A stretch of 64,000 nucleotides of DNA from Actinomycetota bacterium (GTDB lineage Bacteria > Actinomycetota > Acidimicrobiia > Acidimicrobiales > Ilumatobacteraceae). The DNA is taken from positions 1 to 64,000 of the forward strand of contig VFZC01000011.1 of assembly GCA_016871355.1 (NCBI GenBank), read 5' to 3'. The notes under the pieces were generated by a model. It was not told the DNA's origin, did not search any database, and was given only the letters and a program-made list of their open reading frames with translations. Each line of letters opens with the position of its first letter. Positions within the stretch are counted from its first letter, which is position 1. Shown here piece after piece: positions 5,495 through 59,694 of this stretch. Both the position numbers and the translations under genes were made by a program.

Positions 5495-6783
5495 TGGACT
5501 ACCAGCAAGCGCTCGCCTACCTCGACGAACACGCCACCTACGAGAAGACCGGCCGGATCGAGTCGCCTTCTCTGGCCACGATCGAGCGTCTCTGCGCCGC
5601 GATGGGCGATCCGCAGCACTGCGCTCCGGTCATCCACATCACCGGCACCAACGGCAAGGGCTCGACCGCCCAGATGATGACCCGTCTACTCGTGGCCAGT
5701 GGCCTGCGGGTGGGCACGTACACCAGTCCGCACCTCGAGCGGGTCAACGAACGCATGATGATCGACGGCGTTCCGATCTCCGATGCCGACTTCGGCGAGC
5801 AGGTGGGCGCGATCGCCGATCTGGAGATCATCGCCGGCGTTCGGCCCGGCTATTTCGACACCTGTACAGCGGCGGCGTTTCGCTGGTTCGCCGATCAGGC
5901 CGTCGATGCCATGGTGATCGAAGTCGGTTTGCTCGGTCGTTGGGACGCCACCAACGTCGTCGACGCTCAGGTTGCCGTCATCACCAACATCGGTCTCGAT
6001 CACATGGAGTTCGCCGGGCCGACCCGCGCCCACATCGCGCGCGAGAAGTCGGGCATCATCAAGTCGGCCTCGGCTGTCGTCACCGGTGAAACCGATCCGG
6101 AGATGATCGAGATCTTTCGCGCCGCGGGCGGTTCGTCGTTACTCGTGCGCGACACCGACTTCGCGGTGGATGCCAACGAACTCGCTCTCGGCGGTCGTCT
6201 CGTCGTGGTGCGCACACCCACCACGATCTATCCCGACGTGTTCGTGCCACTGCACGGCCGACACCAGGCCGACAACGCAGCGGTGGCCATCACGGCGGTG
6301 GAGACTTTCTTCGCCCGACCACTCGACGACGACGTGATCGCCGAAGCCATGGCCGCGGTGAACATGCCGGGCCGTTTCGAGTTGCTCGATCATCAGCCCT
6401 TGGTGATCGTCGACGGTGCTCACAACCCAGCCGGCGGTGACGTGTGCGCGAGCGTCTTCTTCGAGGACTTCGATCCGGCCGGTCGACGCATCCTCGTGGT
6501 CGGGTGCCTGCGCGGTCGTGAACCCGTCGAGATGCTCGAGGCGCTTCGCGCCGACGAATTCGACGTCGTGGTCTGCTGCACCGCTCCGTCTCCGCGCGGT
6601 CGACCGGCCTCCGAACTGGCCGAAGCCGCGCGCAGCATCGGATGCGACGACGTGCGCGTGGTCGCCACGGTGGAAGCCGCACTCGACGAGGCCCGCCACG
6701 AGGCCGGGGCCGACGACGCGATTCTGGTCACGGGCTCGCTCTACGTGGTGGGGGCAGCCCGGCCACACGTGCTCGACCGATAG
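5494..6783 (+). CDS. folC: dihydrofolate synthase / folylpolyglutamate synthase
   Basis: A 429-residue Mur-ligase-like enzyme that adds glutamate to dihydropteroate and folates. The P-loop GTNGKGST is at 51-58. The segments [13 protein letters not shown] and [10 protein letters not shown] and the C-terminal VDGAHNPAG are typical of FolC. The ATG at 5494 overlaps the clpX stop; a TTG one codon earlier is possible but less likely. Between clpX and ndk it forms part of a long same-strand block. Length and motifs are normal for the family. Confidence 0.93.
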
Positions 6784-50220: not shown

Positions 50221-52130
50221 CGACGCGCCGGAACAGTACGAGTCGGGCTCGTGCTACTCAGGCCCGTAGGAGCCGGGCTCGTACTGCTCAGGCCCGTGCG
50301 AGCCGGTCCGGTGCGACGCGCGCGAAGAGCGCGACGAAGAAGAGCACTCGGAGGCGGTCGACGCGAACGTCGTCGTCAGCGGCGGCCCGCTGGAGTCTCG
50401 GACCGTCGCGTGGACGAGCCCGTTTCACCTTCGGCGTGGGGATGCTGCTCTTCGTGGCGGCCATCGGCCGACTCGTATGGGTGCAGGTGTGGGACGGTTC
50501 GGCGCTTCGGGCCGAAGGTGTGCAGCAGCGCGAGTCGTATGTGAAGGTGGCGGCGCCCCGCGGCACGATTTTCGATCGCGATGGCAACGAGATGGCCATC
50601 ACCGTGCCCGCCACGTCCATTTACGCCAATCCGAAAGCCGTCGTGGATGCGCGGGCGACCGCGCACTTGCTCGGTCAGATGCTCGGATTCGATGTGCAAC
50701 GCGAAGCCGAACTGGCCACGAAGTTGAACGATCGTTCGCAGTCGTTCGTGTACGTGCAGCGCTTCGTCGACGATTCGGTGGCCGAGGCGATTCTCGCGCT
50801 CAATCTCGCCGGCGTGAACGGCGTGACCGAACCCAAGCGGGTGCAAGTGGCCGGTGGGCTCGCGCGCAACGTGATCGGTCGCACCGATCCGTTCGGTGAT
50901 GGTGCAGCCGGACTCGAACTGCAGTACGACAAGGTGCTCCGAGGTGTCGAGGGCACCGTCGTGCGCGAGGTGAACAACGCGGGCCGCACACTGCCCGGCG
51001 GCTCGAAGGTCGTCGAGTCGGCTCGCCCGGGAACCGATCTCGTACTCACGATCGACCGTTCGATGCAGTATCAGGTCGAGCAGGCGCTGCTGCAGCGAGT
51101 CTCCGAACTCGGCGCCAAGGGTGGCCACGCGATCGTGATGGACACCGCGACCGGCGAGATTCTCTCCATCGCCAGTGCCGAACGAACCGCTGCCGACCTG
51201 GTACAAATCTCGTCGGGCAACTTGGCCGCTGTCGAAGCCCACGAACCCGGTTCGGTCGCCAAGATCTTCAGCGTCGCGGCCACGCTCGACAAGGGTGTGG
51301 CCACTCCGTCATCGGTGTATCAGGTCCCCGGTGTGTTCGTGTTCGACGAGGGGACGAAGTTCGAATACAAGATCAAGGACGCGTATCCGCACGATCTCGA
51401 GCCGATGACACTGCACGACATTCTCGTCAGGTCGTCGAACATCGGAACCCTGATGGCGGCCACCGAAATCGGTGTGGAAGGCCTCCACGACTACCTGCAA
51501 GGTTTCGGCTTCGGCCGGAGCTCGGGTCTCGGGTACCCCGGTGAGAGCTCTGGTTCTCTCCGCGACGCCGACGCACTACGTGGTTCGGAAAAGTTCACGG
51601 TCACGTACGGCTACGGATTCGCGTCGACCTCTCTGCAGCTGGTGTCGGCCGTGAACGCGGTGGCCAACGACGGCGTGTTCGTCGCGCCGCGACTCGTGCG
51701 CGCCACCATCGACGACAAGGGTGTCTACTGGGAATCGCCGTTGGGTGAGACACGCCGTGTCATCGCCGAACAGACCGCCCGAACCATGACCGGAATCCTC
51801 ACCGATGTCGTGTGTCTCGGCACCGCGACACGCGCACAGGTGTCGGGGATTTCCGTCGCCGGCAAGACCGGCACCGGCTACAAGACACAGGACAACGGCA
51901 CCTACGTCACCGAGGACGGAACCCGCGCTTACTTCGCGACGTTCGTGGGCTACCTTCCCGCGAATAACCCTCGCGTCACCATTCTCGTCTCGATCGACGA
52001 ACCGAACCCGAGCAGTCGTGACCGCTTCGGTGGAACAGCCGCCGCGCCGGTGTTCGCCGCTCTCGCCAAGGTCGCCATCCAGGAACTCTCGATCGAGCCG
52101 GGTGACGGCGACCGTGGTTGCGGGAAGTGA
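50217..52130 (+). CDS. ftsI: division transpeptidase FtsI (PBP3)
   Basis: A 637-residue class B PBP for septal cross-linking. A long Arg/Ser/Ala-rich cytoplasmic tail (1-68) includes a duplicated ten-residue unit, followed by a membrane helix (about 70-88). The pedestal domain starts AAPRGTIFDRDGNEMA. Active-site motifs are SVAK in PGSVAKIF, SSN in VRSSNIGT and KTG in AGKTGTGYK. There is no PASTA domain. GTG start overlaps ftsL. Confidence 0.95.
   Translation: MTTRRNSTSRARATQARRSRARTAQARASRSGATRAKSATKKSTRRRSTRTSSSAAARWSLGPSRGRARFTFGVGMLLFVAAIGRLVWVQVWDGSALRAEGVQQRESYVKVAAPRGTIFDRDGNEMAITVPATSIYANPKAVVDARATAHLLGQMLGFDVQREAELATKLNDRSQSFVYVQRFVDDSVAEAILALNLAGVNGVTEPKRVQVAGGLARNVIGRTDPFGDGAAGLELQYDKVLRGVEGTVVREVNNAGRTLPGGSKVVESARPGTDLVLTIDRSMQYQVEQALLQRVSELGAKGGHAIVMDTATGEILSIASAERTAADLVQISSGNLAAVEAHEPGSVAKIFSVAATLDKGVATPSSVYQVPGVFVFDEGTKFEYKIKDAYPHDLEPMTLHDILVRSSNIGTLMAATEIGVEGLHDYLQGFGFGRSSGLGYPGESSGSLRDADALRGSEKFTVTYGYGFASTSLQLVSAVNAVANDGVFVAPRLVRATIDDKGVYWESPLGETRRVIAEQTARTMTGILTDVVCLGTATRAQVSGISVAGKTGTGYKTQDNGTYVTEDGTRAYFATFVGYLPANNPRVTILVSIDEPNPSSRDRFGGTAAAPVFAALAKVAIQELSIEPGDGDRGCGK
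50241..50300 (+). repeat. 30-base tandem duplication in the ftsI N-terminal region
   Basis: Units 50241-50270 and 50271-50300 agree at 25 of 30 bases and encode SRARATQARR and SRARTAQARA. A third, decayed unit follows (SRSGATRA). Confidence 0.88.
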
Positions 52131-52131
52131 C

Positions 52132-53562
52132 GTGTCGATCGTGACCGTGTCGCCGCACTCGCTCTCGGATCTGGCCCGAGTCCTCGGCCGTTCGCTCGAC
52201 CAGACGACGTTCGTGGCCCGCGTGACTCACGACTCGCGCGATGTGATTCCCGGGACGATCTTCTGCTGTGTTCGCGGACAGCGTTCCGATGGGCACGACT
52301 TCGCGGCCGATGCCGTGGCCCGTGGTGCGATCGCTCTCGTGGTCGAGCGTCCTGTCCCGGGTCTGTCGATTCCGCAAATCGAGGTGGCTGACTCGCGTAT
52401 CGCTCTCGCGCAGTTGTCGTGCGAGTTCTTCGGTCGCCCCTCGCAGCGATTGCGCGTGGTCGGTGTGACCGGAACCAACGGCAAGACGACCACCACTCAG
52501 TTGTTGGGTTCGATCATGCGCACCGCTGGTTGGACCAGCGAAGTGTTCGGAACCCTGTCGGGGCAGTACACGACCCCGGAGGCTCCCGTGCTCCAGGCGC
52601 GTCTGGCCGGGTTCCTCGCCGAGGGTGGACGCGCCGTGGCGATGGAAGTGTCGTCGCATTCACTCGCGTTGCATCGGGTCGACGGAACGCGGTTCACGGT
52701 GGGCGTGTTCACCAATCTCGGGCGCGACCATCTCGACTTCCACGGTGACATGGAGTCATACGGAGCCGCCAAGGCCCGACTCTTCACCCCCGAGTTCTGC
52801 GATCGGGTGGTCGTCAACGTCGACGATGCCTTCGGTGCGCAGTTGGCGCGCACGGTCGACGGAAGTGTCGACGTGATCGCGTACTCGCGGACCGACGTGA
52901 CCGACGTGTCGATCAGTCCGGTCTCTCACTCGTACACGTGGCGCGGCCGGCGGGTGACCGCCCCCCTCGGTGGATCGTTCAACGTGATGAATTCGCTCGC
53001 GGCTGCCACCGCGGCCGTCGCGGCCGGACTCGACTCCGACTCGGTGGTGGCCGGGTTGGCGAGCGCGCCGACCGTGCCCGGTCGATTCGAGAGCGTGGAG
53101 GCTGGTCAGGACTTCACGGTTCTCGTCGATTACGCCCACACGCCCGATGGTCTCGCCGAAGTTCTGCGCTCCGTGCGCGATGCGAGCGGCGATGGCGGAA
53201 AGGTCGTCGTCGTCTTCGGTTGCGGGGGCGATCGCGACAAGGCCAAGCGACCGATGATGGGTGAGATCGCCGTTTCCTTGGCCGACTCCGTGATCATCAC
53301 GTCCGACAATCCGCGCTCAGAGGATCCGCGTGCGATCATCGACTCGATCGCGGCGGGCATTCCCGATCACCTTCGTCATCGCTTGCACGGAATCTTCCCC
53401 GAGCGAGCCGAAGCGATCGGTCGAGCGCTTCGGCTGGCCTCCACGAACGACGTCGTCGTGATCGCCGGCAAGGGTCACGAAATCACCCAGACCATCGGAA
53501 GTACGGTGGTGCCCTTCGACGATCGGGTCGTGGCCCGCGAATTCCTGGAGGGCCTTTCATGA
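52132..53562 (+). CDS. murE: UDP-MurNAc-tripeptide ligase MurE (meso-DAP type)
   Basis: A 476-residue Mur ligase adding the third residue of the stem peptide. The ATP motif GTNGKTTTTQ, EVSSHSL, TNLGRDHLDFHG, DYAHTPDGL and GCGGDRDKAKRP are canonical. DNPRSEDP carries the Arg linked to meso-diaminopimelate use. A GTG at 52132 has GGAAG 5 bases upstream; a GTG at 52114 is possible. The next gene is mraY, with murF missing from its usual place. Confidence 0.94.
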   Translation: MSIVTVSPHSLSDLARVLGRSLDQTTFVARVTHDSRDVIPGTIFCCVRGQRSDGHDFAADAVARGAIALVVERPVPGLSIPQIEVADSRIALAQLSCEFFGRPSQRLRVVGVTGTNGKTTTTQLLGSIMRTAGWTSEVFGTLSGQYTTPEAPVLQARLAGFLAEGGRAVAMEVSSHSLALHRVDGTRFTVGVFTNLGRDHLDFHGDMESYGAAKARLFTPEFCDRVVVNVDDAFGAQLARTVDGSVDVIAYSRTDVTDVSISPVSHSYTWRGRRVTAPLGGSFNVMNSLAAATAAVAAGLDSDSVVAGLASAPTVPGRFESVEAGQDFTVLVDYAHTPDGLAEVLRSVRDASGDGGKVVVVFGCGGDRDKAKRPMMGEIAVSLADSVIITSDNPRSEDPRAIIDSIAAGIPDHLRHRLHGIFPERAEAIGRALRLASTNDVVVIAGKGHEITQTIGSTVVPFDDRVVAREFLEGLS

Positions 53563-54632
53563 TCGCGGTGATGATCGCCGGAGCCACGGCCATGTTCGTG
53601 TCGCTGTTCGCGACTCGCTTCCTCATCACCTTCTTCCGTGAACGTGGCAAGGGTCAACCGATCCTCGGCAAGGAAGACCACGGACCCGAACATCACAAGA
53701 AGAAGTCGGGAACTCCGACCATGGGTGGCTTGGCGATCGTCGGTGCCGCGTTCATCGGTTGGGTCGTCGCTCACATTCGCGATGGTCTGGCCTTCTCCAA
53801 CCAGGCGATGATCATGTGGGTCGGCATCATCGTGATGGCCGGCATGGGCCTGCTCGATGACGTGATCAAGGTCAACAAGGGTCACAACCGGGGCATCTTC
53901 TGGAAGAAGAAGGGCTACATCACCTTCGCCATGGCGTGCGGCATCACGTGGTGGCTGGTGGCGGCGACCAACATCTCGGAAACGATCTCGTTCACGCGTT
54001 TCGATTGGCCGGGTTGGGAGATCCCGTGGTGGTTGTGGGTCGTGTGGACCGCACTCATGATGTGGGCCACCACCAACGCGGTCAATGTCACCGACGGTCT
54101 CGACGGTCTCGCGGGTGGTTCGGCGCTTCTCGGGTTCCTGGCGTTCACGATCATCGGTTACTGGTCGTTTCGAAATCCCGAGGTGTACGGAGTGCTCGCC
54201 GGGGGAACCGTGAACCCACTTGACCTCGCGGTGCTCTCGGCTGGATTCGCCGGCGCCTGTGGTGGCTTCCTGTGGTGGAACGCCGCGCCAGCCCGGATCT
54301 TCATGGGTGACGTGGGGGCTCTCGGCATCGGTGCCGCTCTCGGTCTGCTCGCGGTCGGCACCAACACCCACTTCCTGTTGCCGCTGATCTGTGGTGTCAA
54401 CGTGATGGAAGCCGGGTCGGTCGCCATACAGATGACGATCTTCAAAGCCTCGGGCCGCAAGCGTCGTTTCTTCCGAATGACTCCGATCCATCATCACTTC
54501 GAACTGATCGGTTGGCCTGAGATCACCGTCATCATCCGCTTCTGGATCATCGGTGGCATCTGCGTCGCGGCCGCGTTGGCGATGTTCATCGGTGACTTCA
54601 CGCGCATCACCGACACGGGGTTCTTGCGGTGA
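53559..54632 (+). CDS. mraY: phospho-MurNAc-pentapeptide translocase MraY
   Basis: A 357-residue membrane enzyme with about ten helices. It transfers phospho-MurNAc-pentapeptide to undecaprenyl phosphate, giving lipid I. The catalytic and Mg-binding parts LLDDVIKV, NAVNVTDGLDGLAGG, MGDVGAL and MTPIHHHFELIG are intact. The ATG overlaps the murE stop. Confidence 0.96.
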   Translation: MIAVMIAGATAMFVSLFATRFLITFFRERGKGQPILGKEDHGPEHHKKKSGTPTMGGLAIVGAAFIGWVVAHIRDGLAFSNQAMIMWVGIIVMAGMGLLDDVIKVNKGHNRGIFWKKKGYITFAMACGITWWLVAATNISETISFTRFDWPGWEIPWWLWVVWTALMMWATTNAVNVTDGLDGLAGGSALLGFLAFTIIGYWSFRNPEVYGVLAGGTVNPLDLAVLSAGFAGACGGFLWWNAAPARIFMGDVGALGIGAALGLLAVGTNTHFLLPLICGVNVMEAGSVAIQMTIFKASGRKRRFFRMTPIHHHFELIGWPEITVIIRFWIIGGICVAAALAMFIGDFTRITDTGFLR

Positions 54633-55969
54633 GCGATCGCGCCTTGGTGTACGGAGTCGCGGTGGCCGGCCTGGCCACCGTTCGCGCTCTCGTCGATCGC
54701 GACATCGATGTGGTCGCCGTCGACGATCAGCCGACGCCCGCCAAGACGACGGCTCTCGCGGCCCTGGGGATCGATCTGCGCGCCACTCCCGACGACGTCG
54801 AACTCGACGCGATGATCGCCGCATCCACCGTGGTCGTACCGGCCCCCGGTGTTCCCGAGAGCCACCGTGTGGTGCGGGCCGCGCGGAAGGTCGGTCGTCG
54901 TGTCGCGACCGAACTCGATCTGGCCTACGACTGGGAGTCGACTCGGGTCGGAGGTCCGCGTCCGATCGTCGCGGTGACCGGAACCGACGGCAAGACCACC
55001 ACCACGTTGCTCGCCGCCGCGATGATTCAGGCCGCCGGTCGCGCGACCGTTGCCTGCGGCAACACCGAGGTTCCGATGGTCGAGGCGTTGGCCATGGACG
55101 TCGACTGCTTCGTGGTCGAAGCCACCAGCTTTCGGTTGGCGTTCACGACGACGTTCCGTGCCGATGCCGCCGCCTGGCTGAACCTGGCACCCGATCACCT
55201 CGATTGGCACGACTCGATGAAGACGTACGAGGAGGCCAAGGCCCGTCTGTGGGCTCACGTTCGTCCATCCGACACCGCCATCGGTTGGGTCGACGACCCG
55301 ATCGTGATGCGGCACCTGGCCCGCGCCGCGTGCAAGCGAGTCACGTTCGGACTCGAGCAAGCCGACTACAAGGTGGTCGACGGAGCGTTGACGGGGCCCT
55401 CCGGTGCGATCGGGAGCGTCGTGTCGATGCGACGCGCGCTGCCGCACGACGTCACCAACGCTTTGTGCGCTTCGGCACTCGTGATCGAGAGCGGACTCGC
55501 CGACACACGCTCGATCGGAGCCGCGCTCGGCGACTTCGAGGCTCCGCACCATCGCATCGAGTTCGTCGGCCAGCACGACGACATCTCGTGGTACGACGAC
55601 TCGAAGGCCACCACCCCGCACGCCGTGTGCACCGCTCTGCGTGGGTTCAGCAACGTGGTGCTGATCGCGGGCGGCCGCAACAAGGGTCTCGACTTGTCGC
55701 CCATCGCCGACGAGAGTGCGCGTGTTCGCGCGGTCGTCGCCATCGGCGATGCCGCCGACGAAGTGGCCGCGGTGTTCGCGGGACGTCGTCCGGTCGAACA
55801 CGCCTCGTCGATGACCGAGGCCGTCGAGACCGCGCGTCGTCTGGCCCGAGCCGGTGACACCGTTCTGCTGTCGCCAGGTTGCACGAGTTTCGATTGGTAC
55901 GACGGATACGCCCGGCGTGGTGAGGACTTCACCCGCTGTGTGCGCGACCTGATGGGAGTGAGCCGATGA
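54629..55969 (+). CDS. murD: UDP-MurNAc-alanine D-glutamate ligase MurD, divergent
   Basis: A 446-residue Mur ligase in the normal murD position. Domain order is intact: Rossmann-like start, ATPase GTDGKTTTT at 118-126, LAPDHLDWHDSM, DDSKATTPHA and LLSPGCTSFDWYDGYARRGEDF. Several signature residues differ from textbook MurD: GTDGK for GTNGK, CGNTEVP for GGNIG(L)P, and EATSFRLA for ELSSFQLE. Core catalytic Lys and acidic residues remain. GTG start overlaps mraY. Confidence 0.9.
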   Translation: MSDRALVYGVAVAGLATVRALVDRDIDVVAVDDQPTPAKTTALAALGIDLRATPDDVELDAMIAASTVVVPAPGVPESHRVVRAARKVGRRVATELDLAYDWESTRVGGPRPIVAVTGTDGKTTTTLLAAAMIQAAGRATVACGNTEVPMVEALAMDVDCFVVEATSFRLAFTTTFRADAAAWLNLAPDHLDWHDSMKTYEEAKARLWAHVRPSDTAIGWVDDPIVMRHLARAACKRVTFGLEQADYKVVDGALTGPSGAIGSVVSMRRALPHDVTNALCASALVIESGLADTRSIGAALGDFEAPHHRIEFVGQHDDISWYDDSKATTPHAVCTALRGFSNVVLIAGGRNKGLDLSPIADESARVRAVVAIGDAADEVAAVFAGRRPVEHASSMTEAVETARRLARAGDTVLLSPGCTSFDWYDGYARRGEDFTRCVRDLMGVSR

Positions 55970-57201
55970 CCGTTGCCATTCAGACCCGGCGTCGGGCCAC
56001 CAATCGCCGATCGCCCATCGCCGAACGTCGTCGCCAAGCACTCGAGCAGGCGCGTGGGTCGCGCAACAAGTCGACGCGCCGGTCGCGTTACGTCGAGCGC
56101 GTCAGCAAGGACCCCAAGCCTCTCGGCTTCTACGTGATCGCCGTGGTCACGCTCACCCTGGTTCTGTTCGGTCTCGTGATGGTTCTCTCGTCGTCGTCGA
56201 TCGTGTCGTTCCACCGCGGTCGTTCGCCCTGGTTCTTCTTCTCGAAGCAAGCGATCTACGCAGTCGTCGGCGCCGTCGCGCTCTTCATGGCGTACCGCAT
56301 GCCCCTCGACAAGCTGCGGTTGATCGCTCGTACCCTTCCCTTCTTCGGTCTGGGTTTCATGGCGATGTCGTTCTTGCCGGGTATCGGAACCTCGGTCAAC
56401 GGCGCGCGGGCGTGGGTCCACATCGGCGACTACAACATCCAGCCGGCCGAGTTCATGAAGTTGATCCTCATCGTCTACGGGGCCGATCTCCTGGCCCGTC
56501 GCGAGAAGAACATCCACGACTTCACCCAGGCCTTGCGTCCGTACCTCACGGTCGTCGCAATTGCGGCTGGTATCGCCATCGTTCAGAGTGACATCGGCTC
56601 GTGTGTCGTGCTGTCGCTCATCGGTGTGAGCATGTTGTTCCTCGCCGGCGCTCCGTTGAAGCCGATGTTCCTGGCCGCCATCGGGGCTGGCTGTCTCGGC
56701 GCTCTGTACGTCGCGCAGGACCCCGACAAGTTGTCGCGCATCACGTCGTTCCTCGACATCCACGGAACGCGCGAGACCGACGGGTACCAGGTGTACCAAG
56801 CGCTCATCAGTCTCTCGAACGGTGGCCTCACCGGAACGGGGATCGGCGCCGGCACGGGCAAGTGGGGTTACGTCCCGATCGCTCACAGCGACTTCATCTT
56901 CTCGATCGTCGGTGAGGAAATGGGTCTTCTCGGCGTGCTCGGCCTGATGACGCTGTTCGCGTTCCTCATCTACTTCGCGTTCCAGGTGGCACTCTCGTGT
57001 CGCCATCGCTTCGGATTCCTGGTCGCGGCCGGCATCGGTTGTTGGATGACGTTGCAGGTGTCCATCAACATCGGTGGTGTGATAGGAATCATGCCCGTGA
57101 CGGGACTCACGCTTCCGTTCATCTCTTTCGGTGGAAGTTCGCTCATCGCATCGATGGCTGGCGCCGGACTGCTGATGAACGTCGCCCGTCGCCCGCGATG
57201 A
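55966..57201 (+). CDS. ftsW: SEDS glycosyltransferase FtsW
   Basis: A 411-residue SEDS protein that polymerises septal glycan with FtsI. A basic cytoplasmic tail of about 52 residues precedes ten membrane helices. QPAEFMK is at 159-165. The usual QPD motif reads QSDIGS at 207-212. AHSDFIFSIVGEE and the end MPVTGLTLPFISFGGSSL are normal. The ATG overlaps the murD stop. Confidence 0.94.
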   Translation: MTVAIQTRRRATNRRSPIAERRRQALEQARGSRNKSTRRSRYVERVSKDPKPLGFYVIAVVTLTLVLFGLVMVLSSSSIVSFHRGRSPWFFFSKQAIYAVVGAVALFMAYRMPLDKLRLIARTLPFFGLGFMAMSFLPGIGTSVNGARAWVHIGDYNIQPAEFMKLILIVYGADLLARREKNIHDFTQALRPYLTVVAIAAGIAIVQSDIGSCVVLSLIGVSMLFLAGAPLKPMFLAAIGAGCLGALYVAQDPDKLSRITSFLDIHGTRETDGYQVYQALISLSNGGLTGTGIGAGTGKWGYVPIAHSDFIFSIVGEEMGLLGVLGLMTLFAFLIYFAFQVALSCRHRFGFLVAAGIGCWMTLQVSINIGGVIGIMPVTGLTLPFISFGGSSLIASMAGAGLLMNVARRPR

Positions 57202-58322
57202 CCATTCACGCCGTCGTCACTGGCGGCGGTACGTCCGGGCACGTTCTGCCCGCCCTGGCCGTGATCGAAGCCCTCGTCGATCGCGGTCACCCACTCGAGA
57301 GTCTGCGCTACTTCGGTGCGCAACGCGGCGTCGAGACGCGTCTCGTTCCACCCACCGGTGTACCGCACACGTTCTTCGACGTCGTCGGCTTGCAGCGTTC
57401 GCTCGATCGGATGTCCGACAACATCGGTTTCTTTCCGCGACTGCTGGCCGCGCGCCGTCGGGCCATCGCGATGTTCAAGGCTGATCGACCGCGGGTGGTG
57501 GTGAGTGTCGGTGGATACGCGAGCCTGCCCGCGGTTCTGGCCGCGCGTCGTTTGCGCATCCCGATCGTCGTCGTGAGTTACGACCGTCGTCCCGGCCGAT
57601 CGAGCGAGATCACGGCACGCTGGGCCGCGGCCTGTGCGGTGGCGTTTCCCGACTCGCCGTTGCCGCGCGCGCGGCACACCGGTGCACCGGTTCGTCGTGA
57701 GATCCGCCGTATCGACCGGACGATCGACCGCCGAGCGGCCCGGCAGCGCTTGGGTGTGGGACCCGATCGATTTCTCGTGGTTGCGGTGGGCGGATCGCTC
57801 GGTTCGGCCGGGTTGAACTCGGCGGTGGAGAAGTTGGTGCGAGAATCGGCGTCTGATTCGACTCTCGCCGTTCGTCATGTCGTCGGCGATCGTTTCCTCG
57901 CCGATGTGACCCAACGAATGAACGACATCATCACCACGAGCGGAGGCGTCCGTTACGACGTCATCGGATACGACGACGCCATCCGCGACGTGTACGCGGG
58001 CTGCGATCTCTTCGTGGGTCGCGGGGGAGCGGGAACCATTGCCGAAGTGGCGAGTGTGGGTGTGCCGTCGATCCTGGTGCCGTGGTCGGGTGCGGTCCCA
58101 GTCGATCATCAGACCGGAAACGTTCGCTGGTTGGCCGATCGGGGCGCGGCGGCGATGCTGTCCGACGACGACGTGGTCGACTCGTTGGTCGACGTGGTTC
58201 GTGCTTTGCGCATCGACGAGGCTCGGCGTGAGCAGTTGGCGACGCGGGCCCACGATCTCGGTGATCTCAATCGTCGGGGGGCGATCGCCGAGTTGATCGA
58301 CGAGGTCGCTCAGCGTGGCTGA
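57198..58322 (+). CDS. murG: MurG-type GlcNAc transferase, divergent
   Basis: A 374-residue GT28 enzyme in the usual murG place, forming lipid II from lipid I. The start VVTGGGTSGHVLPALA, SVGGYASLPAVLAA and the donor-site GRGGAGTIAEVASVGVPSILVP agree with MurG. The HEQN motif of the acceptor side reads SYDRRPG at 127-133, and the usual GNPVR reads GAPVR at 162-166. These are exactly the places that are nearly invariant elsewhere. Function as MurG is likely from context, but the acceptor site looks changed. Confidence 0.87.
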   Translation: MTIHAVVTGGGTSGHVLPALAVIEALVDRGHPLESLRYFGAQRGVETRLVPPTGVPHTFFDVVGLQRSLDRMSDNIGFFPRLLAARRRAIAMFKADRPRVVVSVGGYASLPAVLAARRLRIPIVVVSYDRRPGRSSEITARWAAACAVAFPDSPLPRARHTGAPVRREIRRIDRTIDRRAARQRLGVGPDRFLVVAVGGSLGSAGLNSAVEKLVRESASDSTLAVRHVVGDRFLADVTQRMNDIITTSGGVRYDVIGYDDAIRDVYAGCDLFVGRGGAGTIAEVASVGVPSILVPWSGAVPVDHQTGNVRWLADRGAAAMLSDDDVVDSLVDVVRALRIDEARREQLATRAHDLGDLNRRGAIAELIDEVAQRG

Positions 58323-59694
58323 TCTCGACCTGTCGACGACTCGTCGTCTTCACGTGATCGGAGTCGGCGGTCCCGGGATGAGCGCGCTGGCCATCGTGCT
58401 GGCACAGATGGGCCATCGGGTGTCGGGGAGCGACGTTCGAGAGACGGCCGTGCTCGCCAACGTCCGTGCCGCGGGCGTGTCGGTCACCCTCGGGCACGAT
58501 CCGGGTCTGGTGGCGGGTTGTGATGCGGTCACGTATTCGACCGCGGTGCCACTCGACAACGTGGAGGTGCGCGCGGCGAACGAGCTCGGCGTTCGCGTCA
58601 TGCATCGGTCGCAGATGCTCGCGGCGATCTGTTCGCGATCGGTGGCGCTCGGCGTGGCCGGCACTCACGGCAAGACCACCACGTCGTCGCTGTTACGAGC
58701 CGCCCTGTCGTCGCTCGAACCCAACTTCGTCATCGGCGGCGACATGATCGATCTCGGAACCGGCGCGGCGTGGACGGGCGGCCCGCATCTGGTCGTCGAG
58801 GCCGACGAGAGTGATGGCACCTATCGCACACTTCCGTTGCGTGGCGCGATCGTCACCAACGTCGACGTCGACCATCTCGATCATTTCGGCACGTTCGAAA
58901 ACCTGCAACGCGACTTCGCGGCCTTCATGGCCGGAGTCGAAGGCCCCGTGGTGGTGGGTTGGGACGACGACACCGCGCGCTCCGTGGCTCGCTCGGCTGG
59001 CCTACGACAACTCGTCACGTACGGCGCCGATGCGAGTTGTACCCTGAGATGGAGCGACGTGGTCGCCGAGAACGACGCCATGCGTTTCACGGTTCACGGA
59101 ACGTTCGGTCACCGAACCGTGCGGTTGCCGCTACGCGGTCGGCACAACGTGGCCAATGCGTGCGGTGCTCTGGCGTTGGCCACCACGATTGGTGTCGACA
59201 TCGACGAAGCGATCCGTGGTGTCGAAGCATTCGGCGGTGTGGGTCGACGATTCGATGTCGTCGGTCGTGCCGATGGCGCGACCTTCGTCGACGACTACGC
59301 GCACTTGCCGCGCGAGATCGCCGCGGTTCTGGCCGCCGCGCGAGCGGGTGGCGAGTGGAAACGCATCGTGGCGGTCTTCCAACCCAATCGCTACAACCGC
59401 ATGGCGACCATGGCCCCGGAGTACGCCGATGCATTCGTGGATGCCGACGTGGTCGTCCTGACCGACATCTATTCGTCGGGAACCACGCCCATCCCGGGGG
59501 TCACCGGACACTTGGTGGTCGACGCGGTGCGTGGTCGACATCCCGATGCTCGAGTCGAGTGGGTCGCCGGTCGAGCCGACCTGGCGCGGGTGGTCTCGGC
59601 CCTCGTCGAACCAGGTGACGTGTGCATCTCGATGGGATGCGGTGACATCGAATTCCTGCCGCACGAAATTCTCGAGGTGCGCGGTGCGCTCTGA
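58315..59694 (+). CDS. murC: UDP-MurNAc L-alanine ligase MurC
   Basis: A 459-residue Mur ligase adding the first L-Ala. It has GVGGPGMSALA, STAVP, GTHGKTTTSS, EADESDGTY and TNVDVDHLDHF. The signature DDYAHHP reads DDYAHLPRE, with Leu331 for the second His, and FQPHR reads FQPNRYNR. Length and order are normal. GTG start overlapping murG by 8 bases. Confidence 0.92.
   Translation: MADLDLSTTRRLHVIGVGGPGMSALAIVLAQMGHRVSGSDVRETAVLANVRAAGVSVTLGHDPGLVAGCDAVTYSTAVPLDNVEVRAANELGVRVMHRSQMLAAICSRSVALGVAGTHGKTTTSSLLRAALSSLEPNFVIGGDMIDLGTGAAWTGGPHLVVEADESDGTYRTLPLRGAIVTNVDVDHLDHFGTFENLQRDFAAFMAGVEGPVVVGWDDDTARSVARSAGLRQLVTYGADASCTLRWSDVVAENDAMRFTVHGTFGHRTVRLPLRGRHNVANACGALALATTIGVDIDEAIRGVEAFGGVGRRFDVVGRADGATFVDDYAHLPREIAAVLAAARAGGEWKRIVAVFQPNRYNRMATMAPEYADAFVDADVVVLTDIYSSGTTPIPGVTGHLVVDAVRGRHPDARVEWVAGRADLARVVSALVEPGDVCISMGCGDIEFLPHEILEVRGAL

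Follow-up and report, generated by a model that had tools for sequence, protein, structure and literature searches.

The HEQN loop of A. baumannii MurG has been termed critical for accommodating the acceptor (PMC8256705). In E. coli the E125A variant complements a murG mutant despite an 860-fold drop in activity (PMC8993221, citing Crouvoisier 2007), so the loop Glu is important but not absolutely required, and the equivalent Glu of Agl24 is dispensable in vitro (PMC8993221). According to two reviews there was no lipid I-bound MurG structure as of 2015 and 2016 (PMC4790310; PMC5039524), and the view of how the acceptor is held therefore rested on mutants. The window studied here, i.e., the whole stretch of 64,000 nucleotides from a member of the Ilumatobacteraceae (contig VFZC01000011.1), encodes a MurG that reads differently at the HEQN loop and at GNPVR. 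An earlier note on this DNA had read these two changes as a sign of another acceptor, e.g., a modified lipid I, or of a compensating pocket. No activity data or lipid I-bound structure was found for a MurG of this kind, and in the literature on MurG HEQN or Acidimicrobiia MurG, of which few subscription papers were covered, no earlier description of an SYD-type loop was found.

Identity and Genomic Context of the Gene

In E. coli murG sits in the dcw cluster. The window gene is likewise placed in a division and cell-wall cluster, in the order ftsW-murG-murC (Table 1) and in one copy in a genome that is 85.8% complete; the cluster also holds ftsI, murE, mraY, murD, murB, ftsQ and ftsZ. The protein scores above the Pfam cut-offs for Glyco_transf_28 (93.7 bits; cut-off 26.2) and Glyco_tran_28_C (89.7 bits; cut-off 22), and its best NCBIfam model is TIGR01133 (murG), at 206.8 bits, below the curated cut-off of 250.25. 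Such scores are common: the TIGR01133 cut-off is not reached in 324 of 394 genomes of a class sample (15 without any match counted in) or in 32 of 119 genomes of a phylum sample (one without any match counted in), and for this reason we term the protein a variant MurG. Within the host family a search at E<=1e-10 detects MurG in 207 of 221 genomes, and 10 are above the cut-off. This has a bearing on annotation, as the curated cut-off, attained by only 70 of 394 genomes, misses most of the class sample.

The fold agrees with this assignment. An AlphaFold2 model of the window MurG (pLDDT 95.9, pTM 0.93) has a strand at 123–127 followed by the loop and a helix at 134–140, and a short strand at 158–160 that runs into GAPVR; an EQN-bearing relative (L058) modelled likewise has the same layout (pLDDT 94.7). 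The closest solved folds are 1nlm (Z 37.7, rmsd 3.4, 342 aligned), 1f0k (Z 36.7, rmsd 3.9, 343 aligned), 3s2u (Z 35.9, rmsd 2.8, 326 aligned) and 7d1i (Z 35.6, rmsd 4.3, 340 aligned), and the next fold after these four MurG entries, MGD1, is well below at Z 27.4. With the L058 control the identical four entries lead (Z 37.7–40.5). By place, copy number and fold the window protein is an orthologue of MurG, if a variant one.

TABLE 1. Positions of the genes and protein features discussed, in window coordinates.
Feature	Position	Strand	Basis or remark
murG	57198..58322	+	374 aa + stop on translation; sole match found in own genome (85.8% complete)
ftsW	55966..57201	+	directly upstream of murG; 359.5 vs cut-off 337.5 bits
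murC	58315..59694	+	directly downstream of murG; 393.3 vs cut-off 335.1 bits
mraY, lipid I synthase	53559..54632	+	above equivalog cut-off, 239.9 vs 192.05 bits
Acceptor loop V126-S127-Y128-D129-R130-R131-P132-G133, replacing HEQN-x-x-P-G	57573..57596	+	translation, alignment with E. coli MurG
D129, loop carboxylate in its relocated place (opposite E. coli N127)	57582..57584	+	acid at 127 or 129 in 222/222 rows
S136, replacing E. coli N134	57603..57605	+	S/T in 61/62 Ilumatobacteraceae rows; N in 94% of 110 E-keeping rows
GAPVR 162–166, replacing GNPVR	57681..57695	+	A163 covaries with 127–129
GGGTSGH 9–15, glycine loop 1, His15 kept	57222..57242	+	
GGY 105–107, glycine loop 2, Tyr107 kept	57510..57518	+	
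GGSLGS 198–203, donor-side loop 3	57789..57806	+	
Donor-site R275, E283, Q305, N308, all kept	58020..58121	+	
R359, Ilumatobacteraceae-specific	58272..58274	+	59/60 filled rows; Ala in 122/130 rows outside family

Motifs of the Window Protein

Translation bears out the letters and coordinates of the earlier note, with SYDRRPG at 127–133 and GAPVR at 162–166. In a pairwise alignment with E. coli MurG (1f0k chain), V126, S127, Y128 and D129 lie opposite H, E, Q and N, A163 lies opposite the Asn of GNPVR, and S136 opposite N134. The donor-site residues, which we take to be the Ser, Asn, Arg, Glu, Gln, Asn set of Crouvoisier 2007, were placed on the window MurG via alignment. All of them are kept (S200, N207, R275, E283, Q305, N308), as had been claimed when the donor side was called normal, and T12, H15 and Y107, from the other two motifs of the N-domain, are kept as well. 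E283 is replaced by D in 12 of 61 filled Ilumatobacteraceae rows, whereas the window retains E.

To call HEQN near-invariant was too strong for the class Acidimicrobiia, where A/V/T/S/Q/L-EQN is common; the window MurG departs from these common forms at E, Q and N, not at H alone. If MurG were recognized by a HEQN loop together with GNPVR, the window protein (VSYD, GAPVR) would be left out, along with all 62 rows of its family and rows elsewhere. As the two motifs are absent across the host family and in other families, they mark most MurGs but cannot serve as a practical definition of the enzyme in Acidimicrobiales.

The donor side of the protein has lineage features of its own. W296 (58083–58085) is a second Ilumatobacteraceae-specific residue beside R359; of the 130 rows from elsewhere, 82 have Leu and 28 have Tyr at this position. 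In the same region (58083–58115) the window MurG has one added residue before DHQ, reading GAVPVDHQ where L004 and L023 read GAADDHQ; relative to L023 this is a 3-base in-frame difference within a donor-side loop. V62 (57381–57383) of an N-domain loop covaries with W296 and V300 (58095–58097) of the donor-side VPW loop, the pairs 62–300 and 62–296 ranking 7th and 14th among 56,953.

Copy Number and Selection

A second, canonical murG, for which the earlier note proposed to search, was not seen in the host genome or in the relatives examined. In the host genome (85.8% complete) a protein search and TIGR01133, both at E<=1, gave no second gene. Two single-contig genomes, G101 and G110, have one match each at E<=0.01, and G108 has one MurG plus two short, weak matches to the donor domain (26.8 and 21.8 bits). 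Nine genomes of the family (G009, G014, G044, G054, G113, G186, G204, G206, G208) give multiple matches at E<=1e-10. In G009 and G014 the two matches are contig-end fragments, and the extra matches in G204, G206 and G208 are short, weak (27.6–43.9 bits) and confined to the donor domain. G113 carries three full or nearly full copies (L242, L244, L249), each with SYD and GAP and each adjoining a murC, two of them being 97% identical; it is probably a mixed bin, though its listed contamination is 3%. None of the own genome, G110, G101, G108, G113, G204, G206 and G208 contains a canonical second MurG.

The window murG is under purifying selection: dN/dS is 0.07 against a 92% identical congener. 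Against four congeners at 58–63% identity it is 0.25–0.33 in three, with dS >1 and hence near or over saturation, and not computable in the fourth.

These results bear on the idea that the window MurG has no activity, or only a scaffold role, and that another enzyme, e.g., an MglA-like homologue, makes lipid II. MglA is indeed able to replace MurG in Kitasatospora (PMC8092295). An MglA, however, would be expected as a distant homologue outside the dcw cluster and beside a canonical murG, whereas the window gene lies in the cluster and is the only match found. The single match in the host genome, the single MurG of G110, G101 and, apart from its weak matches, G108, the purifying selection, and the retention of H15, Y107 and the donor residues together make an inactive MurG very improbable.

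Distribution of the Changed Loop

The first alignment comprised 192 MurG rows, that of the window included, after 14 of 205 loci had been dropped: L001 and L009 (the window's own MurG), the duplicates L129 and L144, L174 with its MurG in two pieces, and the fragments L003, L004, L026–L030, L173 and L175. Among the dropped loci L003/L027 and L029 read SYD, L175 retains E, and L174 (from G230) reads LQVD, which fits the acid rule described below. As the loci were mostly the top-scoring matches of each search, the others being hand-picked, one or a few per family with low scorers included, the family counts do not amount to a random sample.

Aligning the protein with MurG from related genomes, as the earlier note had suggested, revealed the same residues fixed in Ilumatobacteraceae. 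The changed loop is present in every one of the 62 usable rows of the family, which cover 24 of 27 genera: it reads SYD in 59 and CYE, TYD and SFD in one each, and the GNPVR position reads GAP in 61 and GPP in one. The new loop is no accident of one sequence, since S127 is identical in 60 rows, Y128 and D129 in 61, and P132 and G133 in 62, each of these positions falling within the most conserved 17% or better. The 62 rows form a single clade (SH-aLRT 100), and five more copies from the family (L239, L242, L243, L244, L249) agree. G110, very likely the cultured relative Ilumatobacter coccineum, has a MurG (L134) with SYDRRPG and GAPVR, which is the sole match in that genome at E<=0.01.

Loss of the loop Glu extends well beyond the host family. 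Of the 34 other Acidimicrobiales families in the sample, 12 include MurG without an acid at 127 and the same 12 include D129, the usual form being N-x-D with GAPVR, GTPVR or GVPVR. The remaining families mostly have (A/V/T/S/M/L/H)EQN with GNPVR. Other loops in these families are HDQN and ADQN, again with GNPVR (f7, f8), and FEPN, HEPG and HESG, which go without the Asn (f27, f34, f35); f2 has mixed forms. Outside Ilumatobacteraceae E at 127 is retained in 110 of 130 rows. Since 12 other families share the loss of E, the 'lost signature' characterizes much of the order, and only SYD is particular to Ilumatobacteraceae.

Could this be lineage drift, i.e., neutral changes in a weakly constrained loop? 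Rows that keep E do vary at the loop His (the top residue reaches 47%), and HEAN, LEAN and YESN forms occur. Drift is nevertheless improbable, as the new loop is near-invariant in Ilumatobacteraceae, an acid is never absent (222 of 222 rows), and the loop changes in step with GNPVR.

Covariation of Loop and GNPVR

Every one of the 192 rows has an acid at 127 only (108), at 129 only (78) or at both (6). Thirty further low-scoring genomes were added, mostly from families already known to have the switch (16 from f4), giving 222 rows. The prediction, set beforehand, that new E-losers would carry an acid at 129 held in 14 of 14 cases, three of them from a family (f16) in which only EQN had previously been found, and the acid rule held in all 30 new rows. 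The Asn of GNPVR was absent from all 25 new rows with D129 and present in all five with EQN. Over the 222 rows, an acid at 127 only goes with the GNPVR Asn in 93 and without it in 20; an acid at both positions goes without the Asn in 12 and with it in five; and the 92 rows with an acid at 129 only all lack the Asn. No other combination was seen. The coupling is therefore not strict, as the Asn is missing from 20 rows whose sole acid is at 127, and five rows combine D129 with an intact GNPVR.

Corrected mutual information, sequence-weighted with an effective number of 128, ranks the pair 128–163 first, 129–163 fourth and 127–129 tenth among 56,953 column pairs. Likelihood ratios for correlated evolution are 63.3 (127/129), 55.7 (128/163) and 33.8 (129/163); the MurG tree was built without the tested columns, and the ratios depend on trees with several weak deep branches. 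Independent-pair tests on well-supported branches yielded only 3–5 pairs. With 222 rows a mean of 2.1–2.9 pairs agreed with expectation and 0.0 ran counter to it, four pairs per comparison being too few for significance, and on the 192-row tree 2.2 of four pairs for 128/163 went the same way and 0.1 the other. The loop His is not coupled to GNPVR by this measure (0.3 same, 0.9 other, of five; 192 rows). Covariation is thus strong, but independence across lineages is shown only in part. Of the two proposals in the earlier note it is the compensating pocket that these data support, with 128–163 as the top covarying pair and an acid at 127 or 129 throughout.

Ilumatobacteraceae carries changes that the swap does not explain, as the N134 equivalent is also lost there, whereas other E-losers mostly keep it (18 of 20). 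R359 shows covariation with 128 (rank 21) and 127 (rank 30), a signal confounded by family membership. Elsewhere, rows with D129 still have Ala or Gly at this position, which rules R359 out as a general compensating charge; it is possible that it serves as extra compensation within Ilumatobacteraceae.

Lipid I Pathway and Cell Wall Chemistry

If the acceptor itself differed in this lineage, through an altered sugar, stem peptide or lipid of lipid I, the loop would have been refitted to it. It fits such a view that the window MurG has other residues in place of all four of E. coli H124, E125, N127 and N134, as does Ilumatobacteraceae with few exceptions, and that in pseudomurein archaea the absence of the loop Glu has been proposed to suit another sugar (PMC8993221). 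H15, which is missing from the pseudomurein enzymes, is however kept in the window, and the pathway that leads to lipid I appears standard, with MurE, MraY, MurD, MurC and MurB of the window each above a family cut-off. FtsW and FtsZ are also above their cut-offs; FtsI, FtsQ and PgeF reach none among the models listed. The family scan of MurE used a start near 52150, as the open reading frame called at 51805–53562 starts within ftsI and the true start is probably there.

The gene murF usually sits between murE and mraY. Here it is not between them; it is elsewhere in the genome (G000:C15:55927-57153), and in G110 the best murF match is about 330 kb from murG. MurF is above its cut-off in 33 of 33 Ilumatobacteraceae genomes (the host's own and those at least 95% complete). 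The idea that an absent murF leads to a modified (tripeptide) lipid I was rejected, the gene being on another contig and above the cut-off in all 33. A weak match to the MurF model at window positions 5905–6738 (49.9 bits) is, we would guess, probably some other Mur-ligase-fold protein, e.g., FolC.

Taken together, the fixation of the loop in all 62 family rows, the loss of E in 12 of 34 other families of the order, the failure to find a canonical second murG in the genomes examined, the standard Mur enzymes and the presence of MurF in 33 of 33 genomes do not support the different acceptor or modified lipid I of the earlier note, and a modified acceptor is unlikely. That note also held that the novelty would be only lineage drift if relatives with ordinary peptidoglycan carried the same residues and used standard lipid I. 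The residues are indeed there in what is very likely I. coccineum, but in the literature covered nothing was found on the wall or lipid II chemistry of Ilumatobacteraceae. The covered text of PMC3910706 describes a route of DAP synthesis and lacks the terms 'peptidoglycan' and 'muramic', that of PMC12263773 gives meso-DAP for a different family, and that of PMC6113628 has no match on the wall chemistry of this family.

Discussion

We consider it most probable, at roughly 0.76, that the window MurG is an ordinary lipid II synthase with a coupled switch in its acceptor site and that it still uses standard lipid I. The predicted reaction is UDP-GlcNAc + lipid I to lipid II. The switch would lead from E-Q-N with GNPVR to (N/S)-x-D with G(A/T/V)PVR: the loop carboxylate would move by two residues, from the end of the strand (E. 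coli E125, in E-x-N) to the Asp of S-Y-D, and the Asn of GNPVR would give way to a small residue, adjusting to the altered loop. D129 may thereby take over the role of E125, loop and GNPVR are presumably in contact, and the acceptor would remain MurNAc-pentapeptide lipid I. An acid at both positions (VELD, HEQD, HEAD etc.), found in 17 of 222 rows, suggests that D129 was gained first and E lost after; VELD and similar forms occur in f4. Ilumatobacteraceae would later have added Tyr128, Ser/Thr136, Trp296 and Arg359. The change in the loop looks like a concerted exchange of residues and not a loss.

A natural and conserved replacement of this kind points to what the acceptor site apparently requires, i.e., an acid at 127 or 129 and a matching residue in GNPVR, and the swap yields an exact series of mutants for testing such requirements. 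It is tempting, if still rather doubtful, to speculate further that Acidimicrobiales have evolved a second way of holding lipid I, self-consistent in its chemistry, in which the acid at 129 and the small residue at 163 replace E125/Q126/N127 and the Asn of GNPVR, with Tyr128, S136, W296 and R359 added in the Ilumatobacter-type family. If true, such a site could bind the diphosphate-MurNAc part in another geometry, accept a form of lipid I particular to the lineage, or fail to respond to compounds aimed at the HEQN pocket.

Compared with the solved MurGs of E. coli, P. aeruginosa and A. baumannii (1f0k, 1nlm, 3s2u, 7d1i), the window protein shares the GT-B fold over its full length (Z 35.6–37.7, 326–343 aligned), glycine loops 1–3, the conserved His and the donor residues, but has VSYD for HEQN, GAPVR for GNPVR and S for N134, at 26–29% identity in structural alignments. 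The N-x-D and G(A/T/V)P MurGs of other Acidimicrobiales families (L091, L151, L154) have the same switch, with an acid at 129 and the GNPVR Asn lost; they differ from the window in having N at 127, mostly V/I/T at 128, N136 mostly kept, A instead of R at 359 and L instead of W at 296. In HEAN and G(M/I/V)P MurGs of the phylum (L188, L192, L202, L205) the loop Q and the GNPVR Asn are jointly lost, as in the window, whereas the loop E and N are kept. Finally, GT28 homologues of pseudomurein archaea resemble the window in that the loop Glu is replaced, but they also lack the histidine of GGxGGH, which the window MurG keeps (PMC8993221).
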